Source: Fibrobacterota bacterium
Lineage (GTDB): Bacteria; Fibrobacterota; Fibrobacteria; UBA11236
Reading direction: 5' to 3'
Assembly: GCA_947466585.1 (NCBI GenBank)
Contig: CANIEU010000016.1
Coordinates: forward strand, 1 to 49,873
Length of the DNA stretch: 49,873 nucleotides
Below are positions 30,987 to 41,277 of the stretch, one piece after another. A program made the position numbers and the translations under genes. The notes under the pieces are model-generated. The model was not told the origin of the DNA, made no database searches, and saw only the letters and a program-made list of their open reading frames with translations. Numbering within the stretch: position 1 is the first letter of the stretch; each line of letters starts with the position of its first letter.

Positions 30987-31013
30987 TTAGCACTCCCTCT
31001 GTCGGACTGCTAA
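30987..31013 (+). promoter_or_regulatory. CIRCE operator (HrcA binding site)
   Basis: TTAGCACTC-N9-GACTGCTAA, matching the consensus TTAGCACTC-N9-GAGTGCTAA with one mismatch (GAC for GAG) in the right arm. It lies at the predicted transcription start of groES, so HrcA bound here would block groESL at normal temperature. The hrcA gene is at 34222. I see no second CIRCE before hrcA or dnaK. Confidence 0.93.
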
Positions 31014-33194: not shown

Positions 33195-33244
33195 GTCCCC
33201 CGGCTCGCCCGTCGCAAGATGGAAGGGTCGGGGGATTTTTTGTT
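33195..33244 (+). terminator. groESL terminator
   Basis: CCCCCG (33197-33202) pairs with CGGGGG (33229-33234), followed by ATTTTTTGTTTT. Inner loop can pair partly (GCCC/GGG). Confidence 0.75.
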
Positions 33245-33252
33245 TTGTGCCC

Positions 33253-33619: not shown

Positions 33620-33656
33620 GCGATGTTGATCTTCCACCAGCGGCAGCATCGACCCT

Positions 33657-33702
33657 CCCCTCTCTGCGCCGGAACGGCGTGGAGAGGGGCCGGGGGTGAG
33701 GC
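33657..33702. repeat. Left hairpin plus inverted repeat flanking the DUF559 gene
   Basis: Hairpin CCCCTCTC-TG-CGCCG-GAA-CGGCG-TG-GAGAGGGG (33657-33689). The 22-bp GGAGAGGGGC...GTGAGGC (33681-33702) is repeated in inverted orientation at 34162-34183 with one mismatch. Confidence 0.85.
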
Positions 33703-33784
33703 GCCTGTGACCGCTGTCACACCTTGCGTGGCTCACACCCATTCGACTATATCCTTCCGTTTCGCCAGCAGAAGGACGGCCTCA

Positions 33785-34225
33785 ATGCCCGACATGAGCC
33801 GCAGACGCAAGATGCTCGTCTCACGCGATCTCCGCCGTCGGTCCACCTATACCGAAAACCTCGCTTGGAACCTTCTGCGCGATCGCCGCTTCCTGGACCT
33901 CAAGTTCCGTCGGCAATACGGTGTTGCGGGATTCGTTGTTGACTTCTATTGCCCTGATCTCCGACTCGCCATTGAAATCGACGGCTCTTCACATGATGGT
34001 CGCGAAGGTTACGATGTGTGGCGTCAGCAACTCATTCAGGAGGAAGACGTCTCCTTCATCCGAGTGACGACGGAAGATCTCATAGCGGATCCCGCATGCT
34101 TGCTCGAACGCATTCGTGAGGTCGCGACGGTGCGCATCTCGCGTTCCGCGAACGCGCAAGAGCCTCACCCCCGACCCCTCTCCAACTCCATTGGAGAGGG
34201 GAGTCTCCCTGTAGGCACGGTATGA
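33785..34225 (+). CDS. DUF559 endonuclease-fold protein (PD-(D/E)XK, Vsr-like)
   Basis: 146 aa from ATG 33785, with AAGGA eight nt upstream. DUF559 landmarks: RRRSTYTENLAWNLLRDRRF, KFRRQYGVAGFVVDFYCPDL and the catalytic-type strand RLAIEIDGSSHD; FIRVTTEDLIAD closes the domain. The pattern D..(14)..E-I-D is the PD-(D/E)XK nuclease layout related to very-short-patch repair enzymes; activity has not been shown for most members. The reading frame runs through the right flanking repeat and ends overlapping the hrcA ATG (ATGA). Inverted repeats on both sides make it look like an inserted cassette in the chaperone locus. Confidence 0.85.
   Translation: MPDMSRRRKMLVSRDLRRRSTYTENLAWNLLRDRRFLDLKFRRQYGVAGFVVDFYCPDLRLAIEIDGSSHDGREGYDVWRQQLIQEEDVSFIRVTTEDLIADPACLLERIREVATVRISRSANAQEPHPRPLSNSIGEGSLPVGTV
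34162..34201. repeat. Right inverted repeat plus hairpin flanking the DUF559 gene
   Basis: GCCTCACCCC...CTCTCC (34162-34183) is the inverted partner of 33681-33702. It leads into the perfect hairpin CCCCTCTCCAA-CTCCA-TTGGAGAGGGG (34175-34201). Confidence 0.88.
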
Positions 34226-35373
34226 CGTTGCGAAGCCCTGATCTCAATCCCCGCCAGAAGCAGGTGCTCACCGCGCTGGTGGACCACTACATCGTGCGCG
34301 CGGAGCCGGTGTCGTCGAGCCTGCTGAGCCAGAGCGCCGTGCTGCGCGCAAGCAGCGCCACCATTCGCAACACCCTCGCCGATCTCGAAGAGCGCGGCTT
34401 CGTCGAACAGCCGCACACTTCGTCGGGGCGACTTCCCACCGATCGCGGGTACCGCACCTACGTCGACGAACTGATGCACCCCGAACCGCTCGGCGCCGAA
34501 GACAAGCGCGCGCTGGATGTCGCCATCCCCTCTATCCCCTCCCCCGCGACGGAATCCGGATATGGCGCCACTGATGACCAGGACGGAGCGCGGCCCCGGT
34601 CGGGCACGGCTGCCAGCCAGGAGTCTCGAATGGCCGGAGCGGCCAAGGGGCTGGCCGACCAAACCCGCCTGCTGGGCCTCGTCATCCCCCCCTCCGTTCA
34701 CGACCCCATGTTCCGCAAGGTCTCGCTGGTGCAAGTTGAAGAGGGAAAGGTCGCCGTGCTGCTGGCCGGGTCAGATCAATCGGTCCGCTCCTTGCTTCTG
34801 GATGTCGGTGAAGCTCCGGGTGTTTCGATTTTTCGTCTGGAGGCGGTGGTCAAGCGATTGAACGACGTCATGAAAGGGCGTTCCGTTTCACTTTTGAACA
34901 CTTATATTGGGGGTACCAGCGAGCTGAGCGCCTCTGGGGATGAAAAAACCGCTCTAGACCTCTTGGGCCGCTCTATTTTGAAGCTGTCTCAGGAGAAAAC
35001 GGGAGACGAGATTTTCATCTCCGGCGCTCGGAACCTGGTGAATCGGCCAGATTTCGCCAAAATCGAGGATTTGGAGTCGGTTTTCGAGCTTTTAGAGTCC
35101 AAGGTCACCTTGGTTCACTTCTTGCGTCAGAAGGCCCCTATAGACGATCGAGACGATCAAGACGGTGTCCATGTGACCATAGGCGAAGAACGCGGCCAAG
35201 ACGGCCAACTGTTCAGGTCCTTATCACTGGTCACCGCCAGTTTTTCGGGGGGTGGAGCCTCCCGCGACAGGATGGGCATCGTCGGCGTGTTGGGCCCCAA
35301 GCGGATCCCCTACGCGCGGCTGGTGCCGGTGGTGCGGTATGCCGCACAGAGGTTGAGTCGACAAGAACCGTAG
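34222..35373 (+). CDS. hrcA: Heat-inducible transcription repressor HrcA
   Basis: 383 aa, ~35-40 longer than most HrcA. N-terminal winged helix: LNPRQKQVLTALVDHYIV, EPVSSSLLSQ, SSATIRNTLADLEERGF and QPHTSSGRLPTDRGYR. GAF-like middle and inserted dimerisation domains follow. Residues ~100-140 (after EPLGAEDK) form a Pro/Ser/Asp-rich stretch absent from typical HrcA. HrcA binds CIRCE and represses groESL. ATG 34222 overlaps the DUF559 stop and has no clear RBS, so its translation may now depend on coupling. Codon choice shifts toward less GC-rich codons in the second half (after ~34800). Confidence 0.93.
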   Translation: MTLRSPDLNPRQKQVLTALVDHYIVRAEPVSSSLLSQSAVLRASSATIRNTLADLEERGFVEQPHTSSGRLPTDRGYRTYVDELMHPEPLGAEDKRALDVAIPSIPSPATESGYGATDDQDGARPRSGTAASQESRMAGAAKGLADQTRLLGLVIPPSVHDPMFRKVSLVQVEEGKVAVLLAGSDQSVRSLLLDVGEAPGVSIFRLEAVVKRLNDVMKGRSVSLLNTYIGGTSELSASGDEKTALDLLGRSILKLSQEKTGDEIFISGARNLVNRPDFAKIEDLESVFELLESKVTLVHFLRQKAPIDDRDDQDGVHVTIGEERGQDGQLFRSLSLVTASFSGGGASRDRMGIVGVLGPKRIPYARLVPVVRYAAQRLSRQEP

Positions 35374-35423: not shown

Positions 35424-35999
35424 TTGAGCGAAGACAAAAACGAGAAGGGCCAGAACCCTCAGAATCCGGACAGCATCGAAGAGATCCTCGCCGAAGCCTC
35501 CAGAGGTACTGGGCCGGACACCTCGTCCGCATTTTCCGCTAATGATGAAGAGCGCTCTGCGAACGAAGAAATCGCGAAGCTGCAAGACGAAAAGCTGCGC
35601 CTCTATGCGGAGTTCGACAACTTCCGTCGCCGCAGCGCCAAGGAAAGCTTCGAGCTGATGGCCACGGCCAACGCAAAGCTGCTCGGCAAGCTCACCGAAG
35701 TGCTCGAGAACTTTTACCGCGCGTTCGATGCCCAGGGCAAAGGAACGGCGGAAGATTTTGAAAAAGGCGTCAAGCTGATCTTCGGGCGTTTCAAGGAAAT
35801 TCTCGATGCCGAAGGTCTCGAAGAGATCGATCCGGTCGGCGGAGAGTTCGACCCGAACCTGCACGAAGCGTTACTTCAGCAGGTCAGCGACACCGTTCCC
35901 GAGAATCACGTGATCCAGGTGGTCTCGAAGGGTTACAAACTGAAAAGCAAGATCCTGAAGCACGCGAAAGTGATCGTGTCGCAGGGTCCGCAGGGTTAA
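35424..35999 (+). CDS. grpE: Nucleotide exchange factor GrpE
   Basis: 191 aa. An acidic disordered N-terminus (SEDKNEKGQNPQNPD) is followed by the long coiled coil (NEEIAKLQDEKLRLYAEFDN) and the beta domain, ending VSKGYKLKSKILKHAKVIVS, all typical of GrpE. It releases ADP from DnaK. Start is TTG at 35424 with GAGAGGA upstream; no ATG or GTG fits the conserved start. 50 bp after hrcA and 68 bp before dnaK. Confidence 0.95.
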   Translation: MSEDKNEKGQNPQNPDSIEEILAEASRGTGPDTSSAFSANDEERSANEEIAKLQDEKLRLYAEFDNFRRRSAKESFELMATANAKLLGKLTEVLENFYRAFDAQGKGTAEDFEKGVKLIFGRFKEILDAEGLEEIDPVGGEFDPNLHEALLQQVSDTVPENHVIQVVSKGYKLKSKILKHAKVIVSQGPQG

Positions 36000-36067: not shown

Positions 36068-37987
<1,920 letters not shown>

Positions 37988-38072: not shown

Positions 38073-39215
38073 ATGGCCGCGAAGAGAGACTACTACGAGA
38101 TTTTAGGCGTTACCAAAGACGCCGATGCGGCCGCCATTAAATCGGCTTATAAGAAACAGGCCATCAAGTTCCACCCGGACAAAAATCCGGGCGACAAAGG
38201 CGCCGAAGAAAAGTTCAAGGAAGCCGCCGAAGCATACGGCGTTCTTTCCGATCAAACCAAGAAAGCGCAGTACGACCGTTTCGGTCACGCCGGCATGAAC
38301 GGTGGCGGTGGTTTTGGTGGCAGCGGCGGTGGCGGAGCCCAAGGCTTCAGCAACTTCGAAGACATCTTCTCCTCGTTCGGCGACATCTTCGGCGGCGGTG
38401 GGGGCGGAGGCCGGCAGCAACGCCGTTCCGGACCGCCGCGCGGCTCTGACCTGCAGATCCAGCTCACGCTGACGCTCAAGGAGATCGCCACTGGCGTCAC
38501 CAAGAAAATCCAGCTCAAGCGCCACGGCAAATGCAAAACCTGCGACGGCGCGGGCGGAACCGGCAAACAGACCTGCGCCACCTGCGCGGGCCAAGGCCAG
38601 GTGCGCCGCGTGCAGAACTCGTTCTTCGGCCAGGTCGTCAACGTGACCACCTGCCCCGATTGCAACGGCCAGGGCCAGCAGATCAAGACGCCGTGCAAAG
38701 ACTGTCATGGTCAGGGTCGAGTACAGGAAGAGGTCATGATTCCCATCGAGATTCCTGCGGGGGTCGAAGAGGGACAGTACCTGACCATGCGCGGCGAAGG
38801 CCATCGCGGCCCCAATGGCGGCGGTGCGGGCGATCTCATCGTCGTGTTGCACGAAGCCAAGGACGCGCATTTCGAAAGGCACGGGCTCGACCTCCACTCG
38901 GAAGCGGTCATTCCGTTCACCACGGCCGCTCTGGGCGGAACCATCCGGGTTCCCACCCTCGACGGCGAAGTGGAACTCAAGATTCCCGCGGGCACGCCGA
39001 GCGAAAAGCTCATGCGTCTGCGCGGCAAAGGTTTGCCCGAACTGCACGGCGGGGTCGAGGGTCATCTCTACGTCAAGGTGCGGGTGCACGTGCCCGAGAA
39101 GCTCGGCAAGCGCGAAGAGGAGTTGTTGAAGGAACTGCAGGCCCTTACAGATGAGGCCGCGAAAAAGGGATCCGACAAAGGCACCGGAAAGTCGAAGATG
39201 TTCTTTTGTCTTTGA
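38073..39215 (+). CDS. dnaJ: Chaperone DnaJ (Hsp40, type A)
   Basis: 380 aa. J domain with H34-P35-D36 ([10 protein letters not shown]), then a Gly/Phe-rich linker (~70-115). Four zinc-binding CxxCxGxG repeats follow: [24 protein letters not shown] and CKDCHGQG. The substrate-binding C-terminal domains include [17 protein letters not shown]. DnaJ stimulates DnaK ATPase. The tail GKSKMFFCL is unusual in ending with a Cys-Leu. ATG 38073 follows the 38015 hairpin. The activator gene starts 18 bp after its stop. Confidence 0.97.
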
Positions 39216-39232: not shown

Positions 39233-40648
39233 ATGGAAGAGTTATCTGCAAAGGTCCTCATCCTCGACAGCGATGCGGAGTTGAAGAAAGAAGTCTTCGC
39301 CGCTTGGTCGCTGCCCGATACGCGTTTGCTCGAAAGTTCTGGCGGGCAGGGCGCCATTCGTTTGCTCAGCGAAGGCGACATCGCCGTGCTGTTCCTTTCC
39401 ACCGAACTGCTGACCATCGATAACCTCGACACGGCCGCTCTCGCCCGCGAACGCAACCCGGGCATCGAGATCTTCATCCTCACCTCCTTGCGCGACACCG
39501 CCAAGGCCGAGGAGGCCGTCAAACGCGGTGCGCACTCCTTCCTCAACAAACCGGTCAACGTGGCGCTGCTCGAGTCGCTCGCCAAAAAGGCCCTCTCGCG
39601 CTCCGTCAGCCGCCGCAACGTGCGCGAACTGCAGGAACACGTGCTCGAAGATCTGCTCGGCTCCTCGCCGGGCATGAAGAAAATCCTCAAGACCCTCATC
39701 AAGGTCGCGCCCACCAACAGCACCCTGCTCATCTCGGGCGAAAGCGGCACCGGCAAGGAGTTCGTCTCCAACGTCATCCATCGCCTCTCTTCGCGGTCCG
39801 ACGAAAGCTTCGTCGCCGTAAACTGCGGCGCCATTCCGGAGAGCCTGGTCGAGTCCGAGCTCTTCGGCTCGAAGAAGGGTTCCTACACGGGTTCTGTGGG
39901 CGACCGCAAGGGTCTCATCGAAATGGCCGACAAGGGCACGCTCTTCCTCGACGAAATCGGCGAACTCAGCCTGCAAACCCAAGTCAAGCTGCTGCGCTTT
40001 CTACAGGAGCGGGAAATCCGCCGCGTGGGCGACACCGAGAACCGCTACGTCGACACCCGCGTCATCGCGGCGACCAACCGCGATTTGCACCAGGCCATCG
40101 CCGCGGGCACGTTCCGCGAAGACCTGTACTACCGCCTCAGCGTCTTCCACCTCACGCTGCCGCCGTTGCGAGATCGCCGCAACTCGATCCCCAGCCTCGT
40201 ACGCAGCTTCGTCAAGAAGTACGCTGCTCGCGAAAAAAAAGACATCCTCGGCATGGCCAAAAACGCCGAGGCCGTACTCATGAACTACGACTATCCCGGC
40301 AACATCCGCCAGCTCGAGAACATCATCGAGCACGCGGTCACGTTGTGCGAGGCCGATCACATTTTGCTCGAAGATCTGCCCGAATACCTTACCGGCGTCG
40401 GCGAAGGGCCTGCATCCCCTATTCAATTCGCCTTGCCGTCCCATGCCATTCATTCAAAAGCGGAGGACCCCATGCAGACACCCGATACCTTGCTGACACT
40501 CGCGCAACTCGAGCGGGATTACATCCTGCGCGCGTTGGACATCTGCCAGCGCAACCATACCGAAGCGGCCCGTCGACTGGGCATCTCGCGTTCCACCTTG
40601 TGGCGCAAGCTCAAGGAACACGGCATGGAGCTCGCCGGCGCGCACTAG
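39233..40648 (+). CDS. Sigma54-dependent transcriptional activator with atypical receiver domain
   Basis: 471 aa from ATG 39233 (GGGAGG five nt upstream). Layout REC (1-125), AAA+ (~135-375), Fis-type HTH (~420-465). In the REC domain the phosphoacceptor position carries Ser56 (VLFLSTELL) and the acidic pair reads D12-S13, while the Thr and Lys of the switch (FILTSLRD, FLNKPVN) remain; phosphorylation by a histidine kinase is therefore unlikely. AAA+ motifs: Walker A GESGTGKE (K175), GSYTGS at 216-221 in place of GAFTGA, GTLFLDEIGELS and FREDLYYRLSVF. HTH: HTEAARRLGISRSTLWRKLK. Last gene of the chaperone locus; a sigma54-type promoter lies 342 bp downstream. Confidence 0.93.
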   Translation: MEELSAKVLILDSDAELKKEVFAAWSLPDTRLLESSGGQGAIRLLSEGDIAVLFLSTELLTIDNLDTAALARERNPGIEIFILTSLRDTAKAEEAVKRGAHSFLNKPVNVALLESLAKKALSRSVSRRNVRELQEHVLEDLLGSSPGMKKILKTLIKVAPTNSTLLISGESGTGKEFVSNVIHRLSSRSDESFVAVNCGAIPESLVESELFGSKKGSYTGSVGDRKGLIEMADKGTLFLDEIGELSLQTQVKLLRFLQEREIRRVGDTENRYVDTRVIAATNRDLHQAIAAGTFREDLYYRLSVFHLTLPPLRDRRNSIPSLVRSFVKKYAAREKKDILGMAKNAEAVLMNYDYPGNIRQLENIIEHAVTLCEADHILLEDLPEYLTGVGEGPASPIQFALPSHAIHSKAEDPMQTPDTLLTLAQLERDYILRALDICQRNHTEAARRLGISRSTLWRKLKEHGMELAGAH

Positions 40649-40650
40649 GA

Positions 40651-40692
40651 GGATAGGTAGTCGGAAGTCGGTAGTCTGACGTCGGAAGAGAA
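40651..40692. repeat. 7-bp tandem repeat array B1 (TAGTCGG family)
   Basis: In-phase heptamers GGATAGG, TAGTCGG, AAGTCGG, TAGTCTG, ACGTCGG, AAGAGAA, directly after the activator gene stop. Complementary to array B2. Confidence 0.82.
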
Positions 40693-40788
40693 CGCAGAAA
40701 GTGATCGGGATTTTTACCCCGGCCTGCTTATTGCGGTACCAGCTGTATCTCTTGGACTGAGATGTGTTTAGTCCCTCTTTGCTTTGTG

Positions 40789-40865
40789 TTTCCTACCGAC
40801 TTCCGACGTCCGACTACCGACCCTTTCTCGTTCTCTACTGCCTACCGTCGACCTACTACCGTCTC
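40789..40865. repeat. 7-bp tandem repeat array B2 (CCGACTT family)
   Basis: Eleven heptamers in unbroken phase: TTTCCTA, CCGACTT, CCGACGT, CCGACTA, CCGACCC, TTTCTCG, TTCTCTA, CTGCCTA, CCGTCGA, CCTACTA, CCGTCTC. Reverse complement of B1, ~97 bp away; the pair could form a long stem. Confidence 0.85.
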
Positions 40866-40989
40866 GTCCATCGCTTCGACTTGGAACGGTTTCGACCGCA
40901 TAAATTTGCCGCTCCCCGATTTTATTTCATAGTTTCCAGTCAGGAGCTGTTTTCTGTTTCTTTTGGCCGTTGCAAAACAGCGGCCGACG

Positions 40990-41005
40990 TGGCACAGGAT
41001 TCGCT
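40990..41005 (+). promoter_or_regulatory. Sigma54-type -24/-12 promoter
   Basis: TGGCAC-A-GGAT-TCGC-T against consensus TGGCAC-R-N4-TTGC-W: exact GG-to-GC spacing with one mismatch. Predicted start ~41016, with the GGGGGG ribosome site and ATG 41043 following. The inverted repeat GGCCG...CGGCC at 40965-40985 abuts it. Confidence 0.65.
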
Positions 41006-41042
41006 TTGGTTTAGTGGAACACTTGTCGTCAAAGGGGGGGGT

Positions 41043-41225
41043 ATGATTCCGAACACTGACAACACCGGCTCCGCCAAGGTTGAGCACGTTCTGGCGGCGG
41101 ATAGCATTCCGTTGTTCTCGGGACGTCCTAAGCGTGAAAAGGTCATCGGTCGCGAAGACCTGATGGATCTCGATATTCTGCTGCACACCTGCGACACCGT
41201 GGATGCGTTTCTCGCCAAGTCTTGA
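41043..41225 (+). CDS. Small protein, 60 aa, behind a sigma54-type promoter
   Basis: Not recognised. 60 aa starting MIPNTDNTGSAK, with a G-rich ribosome site (AAAGGGGGGGG) just before ATG 41043 and a perfect terminator after the stop, so the unit promoter-RBS-gene-terminator is complete. No signal peptide or membrane segment. The second half is basic then acidic (SGRPKREKVIGRED, LMDLDILLHTCDTVDAFL), containing one Cys. It may be a small regulator or stress protein controlled by the upstream activator; that is inference from position. The reading frame is open upstream to 40764 but that part is repeat sequence. Confidence 0.7.
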   Translation: MIPNTDNTGSAKVEHVLAADSIPLFSGRPKREKVIGREDLMDLDILLHTCDTVDAFLAKS

Positions 41226-41242
41226 TCGAGTTTTCCAGTAAC

Positions 41243-41277
41243 AAAAAACCTCCCGGTGAACTCCGGGAGGTTTTTTT
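41243..41277. terminator. Bidirectional intrinsic terminator
   Basis: AAAAAA-CCTCCCGG-TGAACT-CCGGGAGG-TTTTTTT: perfect 8-bp stem with A/T tracts on both sides. Ends the 60-aa protein gene; could also end the convergent XRE gene. Confidence 0.93.

Follow-up and report, generated by a model that had tools for sequence, protein, structure and literature searches.

Control of small heat-shock proteins usually falls to sigma32, HrcA, HspR, RNA thermometers or sigmaB-type factors; in Escherichia coli the ibpAB genes are under sigma32, and a sigma54-dependent ibpB promoter has been reported. PspF-pspA and other sigma54 stress operons have in common a dedicated activator (EBP) without phosphorylation control, an enhancer ~100 bp upstream and small proteins among the targets. 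Our literature searches found nothing that joins Fibrobacter, sigma-54 and heat shock, and no description from Fibrobacterota. In Chlamydia trachomatis, hrcA-grpE is preceded by a tandem sigma66-sigma54 promoter and atoC is raised by heat (PMC8762339). Sigma54 promoters have been predicted for chaperone-class genes, IbpA-type Hsp20 included, in Bacteroidota and Planctomycetota; the main text does not mention Fibrobacter (PMC12316311). Pseudo-receiver response regulators keep the receiver fold without the phospho-Asp, and a 2025 review calls their switching in bacteria a mystery (PMC12632262).

The DNA analysed here, the window, is a stretch of 49,873 nucleotides that constitutes contig C16 of a 2.24-Mb Fibrobacterota genome (G000). 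A preliminary description had singled out one short segment of it as a self-contained sigma54 unit for a 60-aa protein, lying next to a sigma54 activator gene. We propose, with a probability of about 0.66, that this unit belongs, as one of the targets, to a proteostasis regulon which Fibrobacterota control through sigma54, and that its product likely serves as an accessory partner of Hsp20. The features of the unit and its flanks are as follows.

40872-40888, plus strand: dyad CGCTTCGACTTGGAACG, probably an activator site (enhancer/UAS); the -24 box lies 118 bp further downstream
40965-41277: candidate sigma54 unit, with box, G-rich ribosome site, 60-codon ORF and terminator all present
~40963-40987: inverted repeat abutting the promoter, TTGGCCGTTG-CAAAA-CAGCGGCCGA, fold -15.9 kcal/mol, z -3.8
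40990-41005, plus strand: sigma54 box TGGCACAGGATTCGCT (TGGCAC-AGGAT-TCGCT), 10/11 consensus match
41034-41041, plus strand: G-rich Shine-Dalgarno sequence AAAGGGGGGGGT-ATG, by direct reading
41043-41225, plus strand: ORF of the 60-aa protein (subfamily A), with orthologues and under purifying selection
41243-41276: bidirectional intrinsic terminator between convergent genes, perfect 14-bp stem and 6-nt loop
41385-41897, minus strand: XRE-type HTH regulator gene, convergent to the 60-aa gene and using the same terminator

Sequence reading and fold computation placed every element named in the preliminary description where it had been reported. The -24/-12 promoter has the correct GG-to-GC distance, the ribosome site is a run of eight G at 41034-41041, the ORF runs from an ATG at 41043 to a stop at 41223-41225, and the 14-bp terminator stem has a T run on either strand, with folding energies of -24.1 and -23.1 kcal/mol (z about -5.6). 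The Shine-Dalgarno counterparts are G-rich in the same-genus genomes G001 and G003 and read AAAGGA in the sister genus; terminator-like hairpins were seen by eye at the same position in G001, G003 and G005. The inverted repeat that abuts the promoter is present, but it has no counterpart in the orthologous regions of G001 and G003; as a candidate activator site it was rejected, a shared dyad having been found further upstream, and the repeat is probably incidental and outside the conserved unit. The more important site, an enhancer-like dyad at 40872-40888, falls outside the coordinates first given.

The 60-aa gene is a genuine coding sequence under purifying selection. Among its orthologues pS is 0.46-0.73 against a pN of 0.08-0.22, and dN/dS is clearly below 1. 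A search of 61 related genomes recovered orthologues in 2 of the 3 genomes of the same genus (66% identity) and in each of the six from the sister genus (40-53% identity), and a profile search detected family members in 51 of the 168 phylum genomes and 30 of 41 genera, counts that take in paralogues and weak module matches. When the collection was scanned with the protein family, the matches fell exclusively in Fibrobacterota-type MAGs (Fibrobacteres, Fibrobacteria, Chitinivibrionales, Chitinispirillaceae and Raymondbacteria), the closest relatives of the window's genome being among these, which places the window in Fibrobacterota. Genomes with the gene mostly have a single orthologue, and its distribution looks vertical. 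Subfamily A proteins are 60-64 aa long, with invariant GRPxR, L, I and T positions and an N-terminal stretch of ~20 residues that typically reads DKRxVxLExVxxxDYIPFLGGRP. No sequence match was found in Pfam, NCBIfam or PDB, and toxin families gave none either; judged by sequence, the protein belongs to an unnamed, Fibrobacterota-only family and fits no named one. The AF2 model has an N-terminal helix (8-16), the IPxxxGRPxR loop and a C-terminal helical hairpin (37-49/53-59) at pLDDT ~90, the remainder being uncertain. A search of PDB folds with this model returned no match, which says little because the model (pTM 0.41) is confident solely in the hairpin.

The box deviates from the sigma54 consensus TGGCAC-N5-TTGC(A/T), in which GG and GC lie one turn apart, at one position only (TTGC to TCGC), a variant common to the window, G001 and G003 (genus g1). 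As evidence for a promoter the box by itself was rejected: if one mismatch is tolerated, the window contains 6 matches to the pattern and shuffles give 6.7 ± 2.6, so that the count is not above chance. The case therefore rests on comparison. With GG and GC required, a match of at least 9/11 and a distance of at most 150 nt from the start codon, a box precedes 27 of 29 subfamily A genes, none of 18 genes of the paralogous subfamily B and 4 of 411 control ORFs of the same loci, and in the orthologues it lies at -41 to -69 from the start codon. On these predictions promoter type separates subfamily A from B, and a sigma54-dependent promoter for the 60-aa gene is well supported by inference. The window's genome has a single rpoN (G000:C5:25814-26287) and seven EBPs. 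Two further boxes were noted there, one 107 nt before a thioredoxin-like gene (G000:C4:23692-23707, L143) and one 58 nt before an ABC transporter substrate-binding gene, urea-type looking (G000:C7:82824-82839, L145).

A 17-bp palindromic motif of the type TGTTTCA-N3-TGAAACA lies upstream of subfamily A and hsp20 genes alike, in most cases 65-130 bp ahead of the -24 box. When subfamily A promoters served to train a matrix, it detected hsp20 promoters with a combined p of 1.5e-8, and the reverse test gives 1.2e-14; both values overstate certainty, since the genomes compared are related to one another and the starting motif was picked out by eye. After refinement the matrix reaches a score of 483, as against 282 ± 18 for shuffles. 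When genus or family was left out, 28 of 36 upstreams still reached p<0.05 against a null of 406 control upstream regions. With its own genus left out of the palindromic matrix, the window dyad is still the best match (p = 0.012 vs the 406 control upstreams), and its distance from the box falls in the range of about 80-200 bp for upstream activator sites; matches are weak in G005 and G008, and several sister-genus subfamily A promoters fit poorly. The window dyad is a probable activator site. Between the activator gene and this site lies a palindromic element of ~175 bp (40650-40824), with 22-nt arms that are 95% complementary and nested repeats besides. The arm has a near copy at G000:C7:60344 and none in four related genomes, so that the whole resembles a small mobile element, or one of REP type, confined to the G000 genome.

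The link to Hsp20 comes from gene order as well as from the promoters. At eight loci in families f7, f9, f10 and f11, hsp20 directly follows the 60-aa orthologue on the same strand after a gap of ~20-50 nt, apparently within one operon. A representative operonic product matches Pfam HSP20 at 3.7e-23, and the Hsp20 type is the same. No conserved partner gene of the 60-aa orthologues was found other than hsp20 or the activator. In f1, f2, f3 and f5, hsp20 lies away from the 60-aa gene and has its own sigma54 box (9-11/11, mostly 10-11) in nearly every genome examined. The window's genome has a single copy, with the box TGGCACGCGGCTTGCA:

G000:C1:44423-44722 (locus L120), minus strand: hsp20, the only copy in the window's genome

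This copy contains an in-frame TAG (VLRA*LAGV, where relatives have RAELPGV), which could reflect an error in sequencing, a true nonsense mutation or decay of the gene. Several genomes carry second hsp20 copies without the box, which marks the box as a feature of one hsp20 lineage. Since the 60-aa gene and hsp20 have promoter type and activator site in common, the 60-aa gene appears to be part of a stress regulon, and its regulation by sigma54 through a shared activator site is well supported by inference.

We then consider the probable regulator, whose gene is the last of an hrcA-grpE-dnaK-dnaJ cluster.

30987-31013, plus strand: CIRCE operator before groES (31080) and groEL (31484), with 1 mismatch in 18 (0 expected by chance)
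34222-35373, plus strand: hrcA (HrcA 1.6e-34)
35424-35999, plus strand: grpE (GrpE 9e-41)
36068-37987, plus strand: dnaK, by ORF reading
38073-39215, plus strand: dnaJ (DnaJ, DnaJ_C, DnaJ_CXXCXGXG)
39233-40648, plus strand: sigma54 activator (EBP) with pseudo-receiver, AAA+ and Fis-type HTH domains, the probable regulator

That the adjacent gene encodes a sigma54 activator, as first described, is borne out by its domains (Sigma54_activat PF00158 5.7e-69, HTH_8 PF02954 1.3e-12, Response_reg 1.3e-7). It starts 17 nt after dnaJ. Orthologues occur in 122 of 168 phylum genomes, nearly always in single copy, and follow dnaJ in members of seven families (f1, f2, f3, f4, f5, f13 and f14); dnaK lies upstream of the dnaJ-activator-subfamily A arrangement in G001, G004 and G009 too. 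The linkage to dnaJ is absent in Fibrobacter-type genomes and in f7, f9, f10 and f11. In these last four families the activator gene is beside neither dnaJ nor the 60-aa orthologue, and another of the many EBPs could drive the 60-aa gene. In Fibrobacter-type genomes it adjoins a PAS-type and response-regulator gene instead of dnaJ.

The phospho-acceptor Asp is replaced by Ser or Ala in 8 of 8 aligned f1 orthologues. In other lineages the position holds Glu, Asn, Cys or Ala, and the distant orthologues G012 and G166 still have Asp, a pattern by which the loss of phosphorylation looks derived. The Glu of Fibrobacter-type genomes (FIEV, e.g. L162-L169) is a possible phosphomimic. In the sigma54-contact loop, GSYTGS stands in place of GAFTGA in 8 of 8 orthologues, with the T and the second G retained. 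Because the acceptor Asp is gone, the usual phosphorylation is impossible in the window's lineage, and control by amount or by a partner is probable.

HrcA control of the activator gene was considered and is unsupported. The sole CIRCE in the window lies 8 kb upstream of the activator gene, with none before hrcA or grpE; it belongs to groES, and HrcA control of the activator is therefore unproven. A GC-rich hairpin with a T run after groEL (33200-33245), seen by eye, is a possible terminator (fold z -1.6, not in the terminator scan), and read-through past groEL toward the activator gene may occur. Inside the cluster, a DUF559 (restriction-endonuclease-like) gene at 33623-34225 overlaps the start of hrcA.

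Taken together, we propose that the neighbouring dnaJ-linked activator probably drives the 60-aa gene and the hsp20 regulon. The activator would be expressed together with dnaK-dnaJ and, being unphosphorylated, would be controlled by its abundance or by a protein partner such as a free chaperone. It would bind the dyad ~120 bp upstream, and its AAA+ ring would contact and remodel sigma54-RNA polymerase at the -24/-12 box, switching on the 60-aa gene and, elsewhere in the genome, hsp20; we infer that stress induces this expression. Made alongside Hsp20, the 60-aa protein would most likely act as its accessory partner or adaptor, docked by the C-terminal helical hairpin, and the conserved IPxxxGRPxR loop would make a second contact. 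The preliminary description had suggested a small effector under the neighbouring activator, in a stress response connected with the chaperone locus, and had made conservation of protein and promoter in relatives the deciding question. Both are kept across the phylum, and its suggestion gains support from the hsp20 operons in four other families, from the dnaJ linkage of the activator in seven and from hsp20 promoters of the window's lineage, which have the same box and a related dyad.

Alternatively, within the same regulon the 60-aa protein could feed back on the EBP or on sigma54 polymerase as a regulator, whether anti-activator or co-activator, in the way that PspA acts on PspF. The protein is small and without a catalytic motif, its gene is right beside the activator gene in the window's family, and a pseudo-receiver requires some control other than phosphorylation. 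However, Fibrobacter-type genomes and G002 retain the activator and sigma54-hsp20 without the 60-aa protein, and other families link its gene to hsp20, not to the activator. In G002, a complete genome of the same genus, the gene has been lost and a convergent adenosylhomocysteinase gene directly follows the activator. By this distribution the protein is dispensable, and it is best described as a target and accessory, not as a required part of the switch. This status favours an Hsp20-associated role over a regulatory one, roughly two to one, and we regard the regulatory role as unlikely. An accessory partner of Hsp20 is the most likely identity of the 60-aa protein, its biochemical role being a guess.

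The C-terminal hairpin is also found outside subfamily A. Subfamily B comprises paralogues of 55-66 aa, usually one per genome, whose N-terminus differs from that of subfamily A; their loci (L027-L033, L080-L081, L085-L087, L089-L090, L093-L096) are without a sigma54 box. In f1 the genes precede an ABC-transporter pair, and in f7 they adjoin pilT. Upstream of the f1 members, and in f1 only, a conserved TTAAAGCTTT...TACCGAGTA pattern was seen by eye that resembles a sigma28-type (FliA-like) promoter. The C-terminal 35 residues of the 60-aa family also end an unrelated zinc-ribbon protein of ~130-150 aa in most genomes checked (L206, L207, L199, L212, L209, L210, L203, L214, L215, L211). That protein, conserved in Fibrobacterota, has two CPxC-type motifs and DDITNLKIxL...DFI at its very end; its neighbourhood yielded no informative partner gene. 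That three kinds of protein end in the same hairpin suggests that it docks to a partner which they share. More tentatively, Fibrobacterota may have a heat-shock circuit that is based on sigma54 and independent of HrcA. Its pseudo-receiver activator, linked to dnaJ, would be gated either by free DnaK/DnaJ or by how much of it is present, and would switch on hsp20 together with ~60-aa proteins that form a new class of Hsp20 cofactors; their hairpin would be a general docking tail, used by zinc-ribbon proteins of the phylum as well.

It is improbable that the sigma54 promoter serves a nitrogen or other signal through one of the six other EBPs, the proximity to chaperone genes being historical. 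The number of EBPs, the classical association of sigma54 with nitrogen and the box before the urea-type-looking gene would fit such a signal, but the hsp20 operon at eight loci, the dyad in common with hsp20 promoters and the tie of the activator to dnaJ in seven families do not. Least probable of all is a toxin, antitoxin, immunity-type protein or proteolysis-targeted peptide functionally unconnected with Hsp20, to which the small size, the adjacent convergent XRE-type gene and a C-terminal tail, common to several small proteins, that could be a degron or sorting tag might point, but against which stand the usually single orthologue with its seemingly vertical distribution, the restriction of conserved partners to hsp20 or the activator, the lack of a toxin family match and the XRE gene, which was not seen beside a 60-aa orthologue outside the genus when neighbourhoods were compared. 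A relative of the XRE-type gene lies downstream in G003, at +1769.

Compared with known systems, the proposed Hsp20 regulon resembles Psp in its dedicated, non-phosphorylated sigma54 activator for a stress operon, proposed here from sequence alone. It differs in that PspF is without any receiver and has membrane-stress targets, whereas here a pseudo-receiver EBP in a dnaK-dnaJ cluster would act on Hsp20 and a 60-aa protein. As in E. coli ibpAB, small heat-shock genes would be placed under an alternative sigma factor, sigma54 included; unlike here, ibpAB is not known to have a dedicated EBP encoded with dnaJ or a 60-aa partner gene. If our reading is correct, Hsp20 control throughout the phylum would run through sigma54 and a dedicated activator encoded behind dnaJ, in contrast to the usual solutions. 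The 60-aa family is a conserved, unnamed and testable candidate for a bacterial small-HSP partner, short enough for routine annotation to miss. The Chlamydia system likewise combines sigma54 and an NtrC-type activator in a heat-shock response in which HrcA/CIRCE is also present; there, unlike here, the activator partners the sensor kinase AtoS and the targets are mixed, and the parts of that report drawn on describe no 60-aa family protein and no hsp20 operon (PMC8762339). The Bacteroidota and Planctomycetota predictions also place a sigma54 box before an Hsp20 gene, and in the portions used here they include no activator, enhancer site or small protein (PMC12316311). Beyond pseudo-receivers in general, the one described here is part of an NtrC-type sigma54 activator for which a candidate regulon is clear and whose gene has dnaJ as operon partner. 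It would be a tractable case of pseudo-receiver switching, the mystery named in the 2025 review (PMC12632262).
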